Source: a virus. From it: a stretch of 28,997 nt of DNA. The notes below the pieces were generated by a model, which saw only the letters and a program-made list of their open reading frames with translations, searched no databases and was not told the DNA's origin. Position 1 is the first letter of the stretch. Every line of letters begins with the position of its first letter. The position numbers and the translations under genes were made by a program. The stretch covers positions 1-28,997 of the IMG/VR virus record IMGVR_UViG_3300005664_000047; one strand, written 5' to 3'. Shown here one piece after another: positions 3,948 through 9,342 of this stretch.

Positions 3948-4328
3948 GGGGTCGCCAGGCTTTTGCTGGATACTTAAGTTCTTTGAGATGCATGTCGTGT
4001 TAGTATTGGAAACACGTAAATAACCTATATAAAAATCAAATGACGAAAAGTCTACTTTTACTTTCGAAGACGCAATGTCTTTCGTTGGTGCTGATTTAGC
4101 AGTAGCTGCTTAATCAATTTGGGTTGTATCCAACCTAGAAACAGAAGGATGCAAGAAATGAATAGAAAGTTTGAGTTGGTTTACAACTATTTAAATGAAA
4201 CCGTTAGTCGTAATTGAACTATTTCTCAAAATCAATTATATTTTGTTAGTTTAGAAAAATTGACTAAACATGTAAATGAATTTCACTCAACACTTATCCA
4301 AACGAGGGTTCGATTCCCTCCGGCTCCA
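3948..4328 (+). ncRNA. ssrA: tmRNA (transfer-messenger RNA), phage-encoded
   Basis: Rescues stalled ribosomes in trans: an alanylated tRNA-like domain plus a short message that tags the stalled peptide. The 5' strand GGGGTCG (3948-3954) pairs with CGGCTCC (4321-4327); G3-U70 is the alanine identity pair and A73 follows. T-arm GAGGG-TTCGATT-CCCTC (4304-4320). GATGCATGTCG (near 3987) and GACTAAACATGTA (near 4262) match conserved tmRNA segments. The reading frame NDEKSTFTFEDAMSFVGADL followed by AVAA ends at TAA 4111-4113; an in-frame TAA at 4030 limits the tag to at most 26 codons. The hydrophobic end LAVAA resembles the usual ALAA degron. The 381-nt length is normal, and GTAAATA-type sequence follows helix 2. 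The exact resume codon is not certain (TCA 4036 by alignment with the E. coli ANDEN tag). Confidence 0.93.
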
Positions 4329-4349
4329 CTTTTTCGAACTCCATATTCA

Positions 4350-4370: not shown

Positions 4371-4775
4371 ATGAAAATATGTTCGAAGTGTAAAAATGAA
4401 AAGGAGGAAAAGGAATTTAATAAAAATTCTAAAAACAAAAAAACTGGTTTATCTTCCTATTGTAAAGAATGTGTTAGAAATTCTTCCAAAATATATTATA
4501 TAAATAATATTTCAATATATAAGGAAAATTACCAAAAACATAGAATTTGGTATGATGAATATAAAAGTTCTTTAAGATGTTCTAGATGTCCTGAAAACCA
4601 TCCATCATGTTTAGAATTTCATCATTTAGATCCTAATGAAAAGGAAGGTGGAATATCTGAAATGTTGAAGAGGAGATTAGACAAAGAAATTATTTTAAAA
4701 GAAATTGAAAAGTGTATAGTATTATGTTCTAATTGTCATAAAAAAGAACACTATAAACCTTTTATACATAAATAG
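4371..4775 (+). CDS. HNH endonuclease 1, probable free-standing homing nuclease
   Basis: A 134-residue HNH nuclease. An N-terminal zinc-finger-like pair of CxxC motifs (C4/C7 and C31/C34) is followed by the HNH core: C70-x2-C73, His84-His85 in EFHHLDP, and C119-SN-C122-H123 with H127. It would cut DNA near its own integration site. It shares its whole plan, residue spacing and 5' leader with the gene at 6897, so the two are paralogues. It lies between the tmRNA (ends 4328) and a CAT tRNA, and its TAG stop (4773-4775) overlaps the first bases of that tRNA, showing close insertion into the RNA cluster. Cleavage target and activity are not visible; a mobile role is inferred from family and position. 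Confidence 0.85.
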   Translation: MKICSKCKNEKEEKEFNKNSKNKKTGLSSYCKECVRNSSKIYYINNISIYKENYQKHRIWYDEYKSSLRCSRCPENHPSCLEFHHLDPNEKEGGISEMLKRRLDKEIILKEIEKCIVLCSNCHKKEHYKPFIHK

Positions 4776-5483: not shown

Positions 5484-5517
5484 AATCCGAACCAGGTAAA
5501 AGAGGTTCGGATTTTTT
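5484..5517 (+). terminator. Strong rho-independent terminator
   Basis: AATCCGAACC (5484-5493) pairs perfectly with GGTTCGGATT (5504-5513), running into a T-tract. It separates the small ORF/RNA from the tRNA-Trp transcript. Confidence 0.88.
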
Positions 5518-5532
5518 GTTTTATATACATAC

Positions 5533-5606
5533 GCGTCTTTAGCTCAGTTTGGTAGAGCACTGGTCTCCAAAACCATAGGTCGTAGGTTCGATCCCTACAG
5601 GGCGTG
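5533..5606 (+). tRNA. tRNA-Trp (CCA)
   Basis: Acceptor GCGTCTT/AGGGCGT (with G-U pairs), D-arm AGCTCAG, anticodon loop CTCCAAA, T-arm GTAGG-TTCGATC-CCTAC, discriminator G as in Trp tRNAs. CCA end not encoded. Confidence 0.93.
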
Positions 5607-5611
5607 CGAAA

Positions 5612-5690
5612 GGTGAAGAGTGTGGGTTCGATACCCATCGAGCCGTTAGGTCGGCTTGTAGTTTAAGTGGTAAAACATCACTCATTATAA
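5612..5690 (+). tRNA. Candidate circularly permuted tRNA (3' half before 5' half)
   Basis: 3' half: GGTGA (5612-5616, positions 39-43), variable AGAGT, T-arm GTGGG-TTCGATA-CCCAT (5622-5638), acceptor strand CGAGCCG (5639-5645). After only six bases comes the 5' half: acceptor strand CGGCTTG (5652-5658), U8-A9, D-arm GTTT-AAGTGGTA-AAAC, A26, and TCACT (5678-5682, positions 27-31). Acceptor strands pair 7/7 and anticodon-stem strands 5/5, and all internal distances are canonical if the gene is read circularly, with the break in the anticodon loop. The 5' half continues CATTATAA and runs straight into tRNA-Ser; ATTATAA would fit an Ile (TAT) loop, but that register uses a shifted stem. The alternative is paired remnants of a duplicated tRNA. 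Confidence 0.6.
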
Positions 5691-5775
5691 GGAAGGTTGG
5701 CAGAGAGGCTTATTGCACTAGTCTTGAAAACTAGAGGATGTAAAAGTTCCGTGAGTTCAAATCTCACACCTTCCT
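5691..5775 (+). tRNA. tRNA-Ser (TGA)
   Basis: Acceptor GGAAGGT/ACCTTCC; anticodon stem CTAGT/ACTAG with loop CTTGAAA; long variable arm; T-arm GTGAG-TTCAAAT-CTCAC. It begins with no spacer after the permuted-tRNA 5' half. Confidence 0.92.
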
Positions 5776-5784
5776 CAATAAATT

Positions 5785-6896: not shown

Positions 6897-7307
6897 ATGA
6901 AAATATGTTCGAAGTGTAAAATAGAAAAAGAATTAGATAAATTCTTTAAAAATAAAATGAATTGTAAAGATGGACATTCTGCTTGGTGTAAAAAATGTCA
7001 ATTAGAACATAAAAAAATTCATTATATTAATAATAAAGATAAATATTCAGTTAGTTCATTTAATAGTAAAAAATGGTTTATTGATTTAAAAATTGGATTA
7101 AAATGTATAAATTGTGGATTTAATCATCCTGCAGCATTAGATTTTCACCATGTTAATCCTAAAGAAAAACTTTTCCCTATTAATTATAGTAATTTTGGTA
7201 GAAAAAGTAGAGGAGAAATATTAAAAGAAATAGAAAAATGTATAGTTTTATGTTCAAATTGTCATAGAATAGAACATTCAATTAAATATAATGAATATAT
7301 AAAATAA
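6897..7307 (+). CDS. HNH endonuclease 2, probable free-standing homing nuclease
   Basis: 136 residues, paralogous to the 4371 product with identical positions of key residues: C4/C7 and C31/C34 zinc pair, C70/C73, His84-His85 in DFHHVNP, and C119, C122, H123, H127 in the shared end EKCIVLCSNCH. The two differ mainly in the linkers (residues 11-30, 45-65, 91-105). It sits between tRNA-Asp and tRNA-Thr, and its TAA stop is immediately followed by base 1 of tRNA-Thr, with no spacer. The first nine codons and about 20 nt of leader match those of gene 1, so leader and gene moved together. A DNA-cutting, self-spreading role is inferred from family and position. Confidence 0.85.
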   Translation: MKICSKCKIEKELDKFFKNKMNCKDGHSAWCKKCQLEHKKIHYINNKDKYSVSSFNSKKWFIDLKIGLKCINCGFNHPAALDFHHVNPKEKLFPINYSNFGRKSRGEILKEIEKCIVLCSNCHRIEHSIKYNEYIK

Positions 7308-7853: not shown

Positions 7854-7930
7854 TGCCCAACTGGCGAAACTGGTAGTACGCGTTAGTCTTAGAAACTAAA
7901 TTTTTGTGGGTTCGAATCCCACGTTGGGTA
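7854..7930 (+). tRNA. tRNA-Leu (TAG)
   Basis: Acceptor GCCCAAC/GTTGGGT, D-arm of Leu type (TGGCGAAACTGG), anticodon stem TTAGT/ACTAA with loop CTTAGAA, T-arm GTGGG-TTCGAAT-CCCAC. Confidence 0.92.
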
Positions 7931-7951
7931 CAAATATTTATTATAAAAAAT

Positions 7952-8032
7952 GCTCCCTTGGTGAAACTGGTAGTACACGATGAGCTTAAGACTCATTGCC
8001 TAGGCGTGCGAGTTCGACTCTCGCAGGGAGTA
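7952..8032 (+). tRNA. tRNA-Leu (TAA)
   Basis: Acceptor GCTCCCT/AGGGAGT, anticodon stem ATGAG/CTCAT with loop CTTAAGA, variable arm TTGCCTAGGCG, T-arm GCGAG-TTCGACT-CTCGC. Last tRNA of the island. Confidence 0.92.
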
Positions 8033-8047
8033 CAAAAAATTAAAATT

Positions 8048-8557
8048 ATGCGGATACATAGAATAAATAAAGATTTAACTAAAATATTAGTTCTTAACTC
8101 AGACTATTTACCTGTGAATGTAACTACATTCAAAAAAGCATATAAACTAGTATATAAAGGAAAAGCTGAAATTGTTGAGCAAGATAACTTATATAAAGTA
8201 AATGATAAATTTACTAAACCATCAGTTATTCGTTTAATTAAATATGTTAATATCCCATATAGAAAAGTAGTTTTATCAAGAGAAAATATATTTAAAAGAG
8301 ATGAACATAAATGTGCTTATTGCCCATCAGTTAAAAATTTAACAGTCGACCATATTATTCCTAAATCTAAAGGTGGTTTAAATACATGGGAAAATTTAAT
8401 TACTTGTTGTTTTTCTTGTAATGCTAAAAAAGGAGATAGAACTCCTGAACAAGCAGGAATGAAATTATCATTCAAACCTAGTAAACCTCACCCTATATAT
8501 TTTATTTATAAAATACATAAAGATGTAGAAAAATGGCAACCATATTTAATGTTTTAA
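8048..8557 (+). CDS. HNH endonuclease family protein (169 aa)
   Basis: The start is ATG 8048 after an A-rich leader; the open frame extends upstream through tRNA-Leu only by chance. Residues 1-75 form an N-terminal region typical of the widespread bacterial HNH family that begins with a VLN-DY-P motif (here VLNSDYLPV). The HNH core follows: C89-AY-C92, D101-H102 in TVDHIIPKSKGG, N116, and C121-FS-C124-N in CCFSCNAKKGDRTPEQAG. It is unrelated in layout to the two HNH genes inside the island. Homologues are common on bacterial chromosomes and in phages, so a homing role is less clear here; DNA cutting or nicking is the family expectation. It immediately follows the last tRNA and may be cotranscribed. 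Confidence 0.85.
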   Translation: MRIHRINKDLTKILVLNSDYLPVNVTTFKKAYKLVYKGKAEIVEQDNLYKVNDKFTKPSVIRLIKYVNIPYRKVVLSRENIFKRDEHKCAYCPSVKNLTVDHIIPKSKGGLNTWENLITCCFSCNAKKGDRTPEQAGMKLSFKPSKPHPIYFIYKIHKDVEKWQPYLMF

Positions 8558-8581
8558 GTTAATTAATTTTCTAATACTTTA

Positions 8582-8613
8582 TTGGGATTACAAAATCTTT
8601 TAACATATATTTA
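8582..8613 (+). promoter_or_regulatory. Bipartite phage promoter, copy 8
   Basis: TTGGGATTACA at 8582-8592, 13 nt, TATATTTA at 8606-8613. It is the only copy downstream of the tRNA island; the ATG at 8636 follows an A-rich leader. Confidence 0.75.
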
Positions 8614-8635
8614 TACAAATTAAAAATTAAAAGAT

Positions 8636-8848
8636 ATGAAAAATTTAACCTTTCCAAAGATTTTTACAATTTTAATGTTTGTAATTTCTGCAATTTTATT
8701 GGTAACTAATATATTTGATATTACTAATTTTGGTTACTTAAATATATTTGGTTTATTTTTAACTCCATTTCTTACTATGGGAATATTTAATATATTAACT
8801 TTGATTTCCCATCCTATAGAAATTATGTTTATTTTACTTTTTGAATAA
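8636..8848 (+). CDS. Small membrane protein (70 aa)
   Basis: Almost wholly hydrophobic. One membrane helix is likely at residues 9-27 (IFTILMFVISAILLVTN) and one or two more between 33 and 68, with an FGYLNIFGLFLTPFLT stretch between. It has no signal cleavage site. It starts behind promoter copy 8 and is followed after 14 nt by the nuclease-like gene, so the two share a transcript. A phage inner-membrane protein; a holin or superinfection-exclusion role is possible, but no specific motif supports either. Confidence 0.65.
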   Translation: MKNLTFPKIFTILMFVISAILLVTNIFDITNFGYLNIFGLFLTPFLTMGIFNILTLISHPIEIMFILLFE

Positions 8849-8862
8849 ATTAATTATTTAAT

Positions 8863-9342
8863 ATGGAAAAAACATTTAAATCTCTCACACATATAACTGA
8901 GGAAGAGGCTGAGAAATATATATCTTCTAAAGAAGATTTTAAAAATAATACATTACATTTTTTCACTTTAACACCATTAGAAGATGGTTGGGAGCAAGTA
9001 AATTATTTTACTAAGCGAACCAAAAAACCTATTCCTACTATAGGTGAAGGAAAAGAAATCATATATATAATGTCTAATCCTACATATCCAGGTTTATTAA
9101 AAATCGGATATACAGGTAAAGAAATTGAAACTAGACGTAAAGATCTATCTAAAGCAACAGGTGTTCCTACACCATTTAAAATTGAATTTGTTTATAAATT
9201 ACAAGGTAGAGGAGAAGAAATGGAACGTGAAATCCACTCATATCTTAAAGAATTTAGAACTAGCAATCAACGTGAATTTTTTGAACTAGAATTAAAACCA
9301 GCTATTAATGCTGTAAAGATTGTAGGAAAAAATTATATTTAA
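8863..9342 (+). CDS. T5orf172/MUG113-type GIY-YIG superfamily protein
   Basis: Residues 66-140 match the T5orf172 (MUG113) domain, a branch of the GIY-YIG nuclease superfamily: IIYIMSN-PGLLKIGYTGK stands for the two-strand GIY-YIG core, then RRKDLSKATGVPTPF, then E-REIHSYL and REFFEL. The conserved Arg in ETRR and the Glu/His of REIH are in the expected order. The first 60 residues are an acidic, less conserved extension. Length (159 aa) suits a single-domain phage protein. Such domains occur in many phages and are presumed DNA nucleases, though the activity of this branch is poorly established. It follows the small membrane protein in the promoter copy 8 unit. Confidence 0.8.
   Translation: MEKTFKSLTHITEEEAEKYISSKEDFKNNTLHFFTLTPLEDGWEQVNYFTKRTKKPIPTIGEGKEIIYIMSNPTYPGLLKIGYTGKEIETRRKDLSKATGVPTPFKIEFVYKLQGRGEEMEREIHSYLKEFRTSNQREFFELELKPAINAVKIVGKNYI

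Follow-up and report, generated by a model that had tools for sequence, protein, structure and literature searches.

Introduction

YrlA is a Y RNA of 90-150 nucleotides (nt) in which a domain resembling transfer RNA (tRNA), with D, T and acceptor arms, is joined to a basal stem, the binding site of the Ro60 homologue Rsr (PMC8394870). The tRNA-like domain has been proposed as a possible competitive inhibitor of anticodon nuclease (PMC7790460), and passages in PMC7765460 (citing Sim & Wolin 2018) and PMC7824862 note both Ro60 proteins and YrlA in phages.

Here we describe an 84-nt element at positions 5607-5690 of IMG/VR virus record IMGVR_UViG_3300005664_000047, positions 1 to 28,997 of which (the whole stretch analysed, hereafter the window) make up a 29-kilobase (kb) fragment of a phage genome. 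The element carries the two halves of a tRNA in reversed order within a tRNA array, and an earlier note had read it as a candidate circularly permuted tRNA, perhaps for ATA codons or perhaps a decoy for anticodon nucleases, with no phage case known. That layout is already known from the tRNA-like module of YrlA, which is found beside phage Ro60 genes. We favour, at a probability of about two in three, the reading that the element is a minimal tRNA-mimic RNA, that is, a YrlA-type permuted module without the Ro60-binding basal stem, situated inside a tRNA array, released by processing and acting on a tRNA-binding factor.

Results

All parts of the element and both flanking genes lie on the plus strand. 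The predicted released RNA is bounded by two ordinary tRNAs placed by ARAGORN; 3' processing of tRNA-Trp(cca) (5533-5607) would define its 5' end, and ribonuclease P (RNase P) cleavage at tRNA-Ser(tga) (5691-5776) would define its 3' end. The element fills this gap exactly, and its proposed release through processing of the flanking tRNAs is plausible. It begins with a 5' tail, CGAAA (5607-5611), and CGA(A/G) after the discriminator is common in the minimal modules described below. The 3' strand of an anticodon-like stem, GGTGA (5612-5616), a 5-nt variable loop, AGAGT (5617-5621), a T-arm with a 5/5 stem, GTGGG-TTCGATA-CCCAT (5622-5638), and the acceptor 3' strand CGAGCCG (5639-5645) follow. 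The acceptor hairpin is capped by 6 nt, TTAGGT, without CCA (5646-5651), and its 5' strand, CGGCTTG (5652-5658), makes 7/7 pairs with 5639-5645, one of them G-U. Next come U8-A9 (T8-A9 in the DNA, 5659-5660), a D-arm with a 4/4 stem, GTTT-AAGTGGTA-AAAC (5661-5676), A26 (5677), the 5' strand of the anticodon-like stem, TCACT (5678-5682), which pairs 5/5 with 5612-5616, and the 3' tail CATTATAA (5683-5690), reaching the start of tRNA-Ser. Checks of sequence and pairing bear out every coordinate and part previously claimed for 5607-5690, with stems of 7/7, 5/5, 5/5 and 4/4.

In the window, ARAGORN made no call in the gap between tRNA-Trp and tRNA-Ser, and it called the rotated element as a tRNA when a 7-nt loop was supplied. 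Among 841 junctions between ordinary neighbouring tRNAs in all fetched loci, a single one combined 7/7 acceptor with 5/5 anticodon pairing. The permuted fold of the window element is not due to chance, and a structure scan found that the reversed order of halves is real and recurs in other phages.

The scan used a structure descriptor made up of a T-arm, a 7-nt strand, a cap, a second 7-nt strand that pairs with the first, U8-R9 and a D-arm with GG. It was applied to contigs retrieved with patterns for tRNA motifs and to window-related loci, and the module counts it yields are lower bounds. Where both halves lay in ordinary tRNAs, 7/7 acceptor pairing occurred at 3 of 810 junctions; where neither half did and the T and D stems were perfect, it occurred in 36 of 94 cases, and the distribution was bimodal. 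Besides the window element, at least 29 minimal modules were found in 29 contigs or records, each without a basal stem and separated from a preceding ordinary tRNA by no more than about 25 nt; two of them, from Streptomyces isolates (L526 and L527), are near-identical, so that the independent families are fewer than 29. A 5/5 anticodon-like stem, which was not a selection criterion, is present in 17 of the 29, compared to 26 of 841 ordinary junctions. The tightest arrangement is seen in L277, where 72 nt fill the whole gap from tRNA-Pro to tRNA-Ala. Loop lengths and sequences differ across the class, and the acceptor hairpins of L104, L426, L277 and L545 carry UUCG or GNRA caps. L104 is a weak member that was retained, and several other pattern matches were rejected as ordinary tRNA neighbours or as random. 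Tandem pairs of minimal modules were observed in L430 (at 6229 and 6302) and on the minus strand of L443 (at 1779 and 1853). The window element fits this class in its 7-bp acceptor hairpin, its 5-bp closing stem, its adjoining tRNA and its lack of a basal stem, and we assign it to the class with considerable confidence. The minimal modules recur widely in phages and apparently make up a class of small tRNA-resembling RNAs that has so far gone unrecorded.

One minimal module (L459) proved to be an unannotated spacer between the tRNA-Pro and tRNA-Gly genes of Streptomyces phages of the Beephvirinae (Immanuel3 group). From an alignment of eight such Pro-Gly spacers, for which DNA similarity was the sole criterion of choice, RNAalifold predicted the permuted cloverleaf de novo; of its 22 pairs, 12 had changes on both sides. 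Of the cells at 15 named pairs, 97.5% can pair, compared to 86.1% in shuffled alignments, and 8 of these pairs had double changes as against 2.5 in the shuffles; none of 500 shuffles reached the covariation score of the spacers. For this one homologous family within the minimal class, the data show compensatory evolution. The flanks CGAGA and TCGTGACTTG are almost invariant. In RosePharie and WRightOn (L534 and L536), the flanks and the 7-bp stem are kept and the tRNA-like module is swapped for a plain hairpin, while the module is degenerate in Dennebes and lost in Manuel. A constant base bearing an exchangeable module is the design principle of Y RNAs.

Cellulophaga phage phi4:1 has an ordinary tRNA-Ile that aligns with the rotated window element at 75.8% identity, covering 84% of the rotated element, and the 5' half of the element also aligns with tRNA-Met of Acinetobacter phage Minot. 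The alignment to one tRNA-Ile runs through both anticodon-stem strands, and both halves therefore resemble parts of a single tRNA; the element could have arisen from a tandem duplication whose outer halves were later lost. Such an origin raises the possibility that the modules are functionless remnants, the 3' half of one tRNA copy followed by the 5' half of the next. The common resemblance of both halves to a single tRNA and the short gap between the acceptor strands, similar to a normal spacer in the window array, agree with this idea, and duplication may indeed be a route by which such modules arise. However, both breakpoints would need to hit the anticodon loop, the same product is present with intact stems in about 30 contigs, and the Streptomyces family covaries, so we consider functionless remnants an improbable account. 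The earlier note had named relatives with an intact ordinary tRNA, decayed into these halves, as the finding that would count against it; none was found, and neither was any close relative. Exact-pattern searches gave no homologue of the window element, and BLAST gave nothing but half-matches to ordinary tRNAs. The note had also suggested a search of related phages for the same order; 80 loci related to the window phage through a 416-amino-acid structural protein all lack the element.

The sole significant non-tRNA Rfam lead at the window element was RF02553 (YrlA), whose 27.8 bits fall short of the gathering score of 69; in the alignment, the YrlA consensus shares the permuted order. This score was rejected as proof of YrlA, as ordinary tRNA junctions reach 35.6 bits. 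The model gives 20-36 bits at ordinary neighbouring-tRNA junctions (G027, G028, G032 and others), and its cut-off misses most modules adjoining bacterial Ro60 genes. A second kind of module in phage contigs is built on a long basal stem, in many cases with a motif resembling TTACTTC/ATTACATC, and lies near a TROVE/Ro60 gene in the four phage records checked (L160/L173, L124/L174, L096/L176 and L420). We regard these basal-stem modules beside phage Ro60 as YrlA Y RNAs. At about half of the bacterial Ro60-family loci (9 of 19) the descriptor likewise picked up modules, one scoring over the Rfam YrlA cut-off; the modules beside Ro60 genes serve as positive controls for the scan. In Acinetobacter sichuanensis (L557) three YrlA-like modules follow a Ro60-family gene in a row (4163, 4305 and 4619). 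Several basal-stem modules (L124, L140, L112 at 6207, L113, L160 and the bacterial L558) have, just before the variable region, a hairpin whose 7-nt loop resembles that of an anticodon arm, for example CTTTTAA (L124), CTTCTAA (L140), CTGTTAA (L112) and CTCTTAA (L558), and read as mimics of a whole tRNA permuted between positions 26 and 27. An interpretation of modules adjoining a full anticodon hairpin (L140 and L092) as attachment-site duplications was dropped when flanking complementary stems were seen.

The presence of basal-stem versions beside phage Ro60 genes, together with the shared module order and the RF02553 alignment, raises the question of whether the window element is itself a full YrlA Y RNA bound by phage or host Ro60. 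A host protein is conceivable, since 13 of the 98 Actinomycetes genomes examined, most of them large, encode Ro60, and host Ro60 may therefore be a partner for the Streptomyces phage modules. The 5- and 8-nt tails of the window element, however, contain neither a basal stem nor the Y-RNA motif, the 29-kb window and 26 minimal-class records (some of them fragments) encode no TROVE protein, and the RF02553 match is unspecific. A full YrlA is thus unlikely at this locus.

The earlier note's proposal of a decoding tRNA turns on the anticodon loop. The anticodon stem TCACT/GGTGA (5/5) holds, but the loop ATTATAA requires CACTC as the stem, and the two claims are incompatible. When the ends of the element are joined, the loop is CATTATAA+CGAAA, 13 nt long, and position 33 is an A; A33 was also present in all 7-nt trimmings of the loop that were tried. 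The need for an extra decoding tRNA, moreover, is not obvious, as the window array already holds 25 ordinary tRNAs, three of them CAT tRNAs, in addition to a transfer-messenger RNA (tmRNA).

A true permuted tRNA gene would have the 5'-phosphate and 3'-hydroxyl ends left by RNase Z and RNase P ligated and the acceptor cap removed to give a working tRNA. The reversed halves, the full cloverleaf and the tRNA-Ile-like sequence are what such a gene would show, its ends come together in the anticodon loop, and Rnl1, Rnl2 or RtcB genes are present in some phages of the minimal class. An RNA ligase as a general companion of the minimal class was nevertheless rejected, for only some records encode one. 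The ligase that had been suggested as a check was looked for, and neither Rnl1 nor Rnl2 is present in the window, which is an incomplete genome, whereas Rnl1, Rnl2 and RtcB are all absent from G072, a record carrying a minimal module, whose 46,094 bp equal the size of the complete Immanuel3 record. Loop length and sequence also vary class-wide. The 13-nt loop with A33, the UUCG and GNRA tetraloop caps in several relatives and the lack of a ligase in G072 together make a working permuted tRNA very unlikely. In the literature searched, which excluded subscription papers, no published phage permuted tRNA was found.

Several further features surround the element in the window. The phage tmRNA lies at 3948-4331 (73.7 bits; no ARAGORN call), and a terminator-like hairpin, AATCCGAACC...GGTTCGGATT with a 10-nt loop and a following T run (5484-5518), lies directly upstream of tRNA-Trp; the length of its loop let it escape the terminator scan. 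Endonuclease-like open reading frames (ORFs) lie inside or adjoin the tRNA array at 4371-4775, 6897-7307, 7904-8557 and 8863-9342; the last two match Pfam HNH_5 and T5orf172, and the first two have in common 124 nt at 73% identity and 59 nt at 88%. A repeat, TWGGATTACA-N~18-TATATTTA, is found upstream of ORFs at 15-90, 448-523, 691-766, 899-974, 1198-1263, 1456-1531, 2932-2997 and 8572-8647 and is probably a phage promoter. This repeat accounts for the identical N-termini (MSVYLPQIKINNM) of two ORFs that start with TTG, at 475 and 926.

Discussion

The structural class of the window element, the frequency of its anticodon-like stem and the covariation in the Streptomyces family lead us to favour a minimal tRNA mimic. 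As we envisage it, the element would be freed from the tRNA transcript by RNase P cleavage at tRNA-Ser together with maturation of the tRNA-Trp 3' end. The excised RNA would persist as a hairpin-capped L-shape that could not be charged, and would occupy a tRNA-binding factor instead of decoding. Most likely it would serve as a decoy that draws off an enzyme cleaving or modifying tRNAs, or as a tether.

Several observations weigh against this interpretation. When tertiary contacts are ignored, ViennaRNA prefers another fold of the element to the permuted cloverleaf by 4.6 kcal/mol (-24.7 versus -20.1). Because the class was gathered by patterns and a structure filter, its acceptor statistics partly reflect that choice, whereas neither the anticodon-stem test nor the Streptomyces alignment does. 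As no homologue of the window element was found, the case for selection on it draws on the class. The element has only a 5-bp stem and tails of 5 and 8 nt before the tRNA genes begin, with no basal stem to bind Ro60, and the window fragment contains no Ro60 (TROVE) gene.

Taken alone, the idea that the element functions by sequestering a tRNA-binding enzyme is tentative and falls short of even odds. The decoy role, also suggested in the earlier note, matches the proposal published for YrlA (PMC7790460). A broader proposition, that phages widely carry Ro60-independent permuted tRNA mimics in their tRNA arrays, excised by host enzymes and serving as decoys against tRNA-cleaving antiviral enzymes, is more speculative still, and we would sooner bet against it as a whole. 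Large phage tRNA arrays are usually read as a codon supply, and conserved mimics in their spacers suggest that such arrays deliver non-decoding RNAs too. Mimics with compensatory evolution occur in culturable Streptomyces phages, which offers a direct experimental handle, including on the role of a Y-RNA tRNA-like module without an attached Ro60, a question that is open in the YrlA literature (PMC7790460).

Among known systems, YrlA, permuted tRNA genes and an ordinary phage tRNA-Ile come closest to the element. The tRNA-Ile of Cellulophaga phage phi4:1 differs from it in having the normal order of halves and an ordinary 7-nt loop. Permuted tRNA genes of red and green algae and of archaea resemble it in having the 3' half first, a short acceptor spacer and a break in the anticodon loop. 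In contrast to those genes, the window element has no 7-nt loop with U33 and belongs to a bacterial setting with no known splicing endonuclease, and its minimal class includes one complete-size genome that lacks a ligase and relatives with tetraloop-capped acceptors. It departs from YrlA (RF02553) in its position in a tRNA array, its length of about 84 nt, its score below the Rfam cut-off and its lack of a basal stem and a nearby Ro60 gene. With YrlA it nevertheless shares the T-arm, the capped acceptor hairpin, U8-A9, the D-arm, a closing stem that replaces the anticodon stem, and tRNA nucleotides in both the T- and D-loops.
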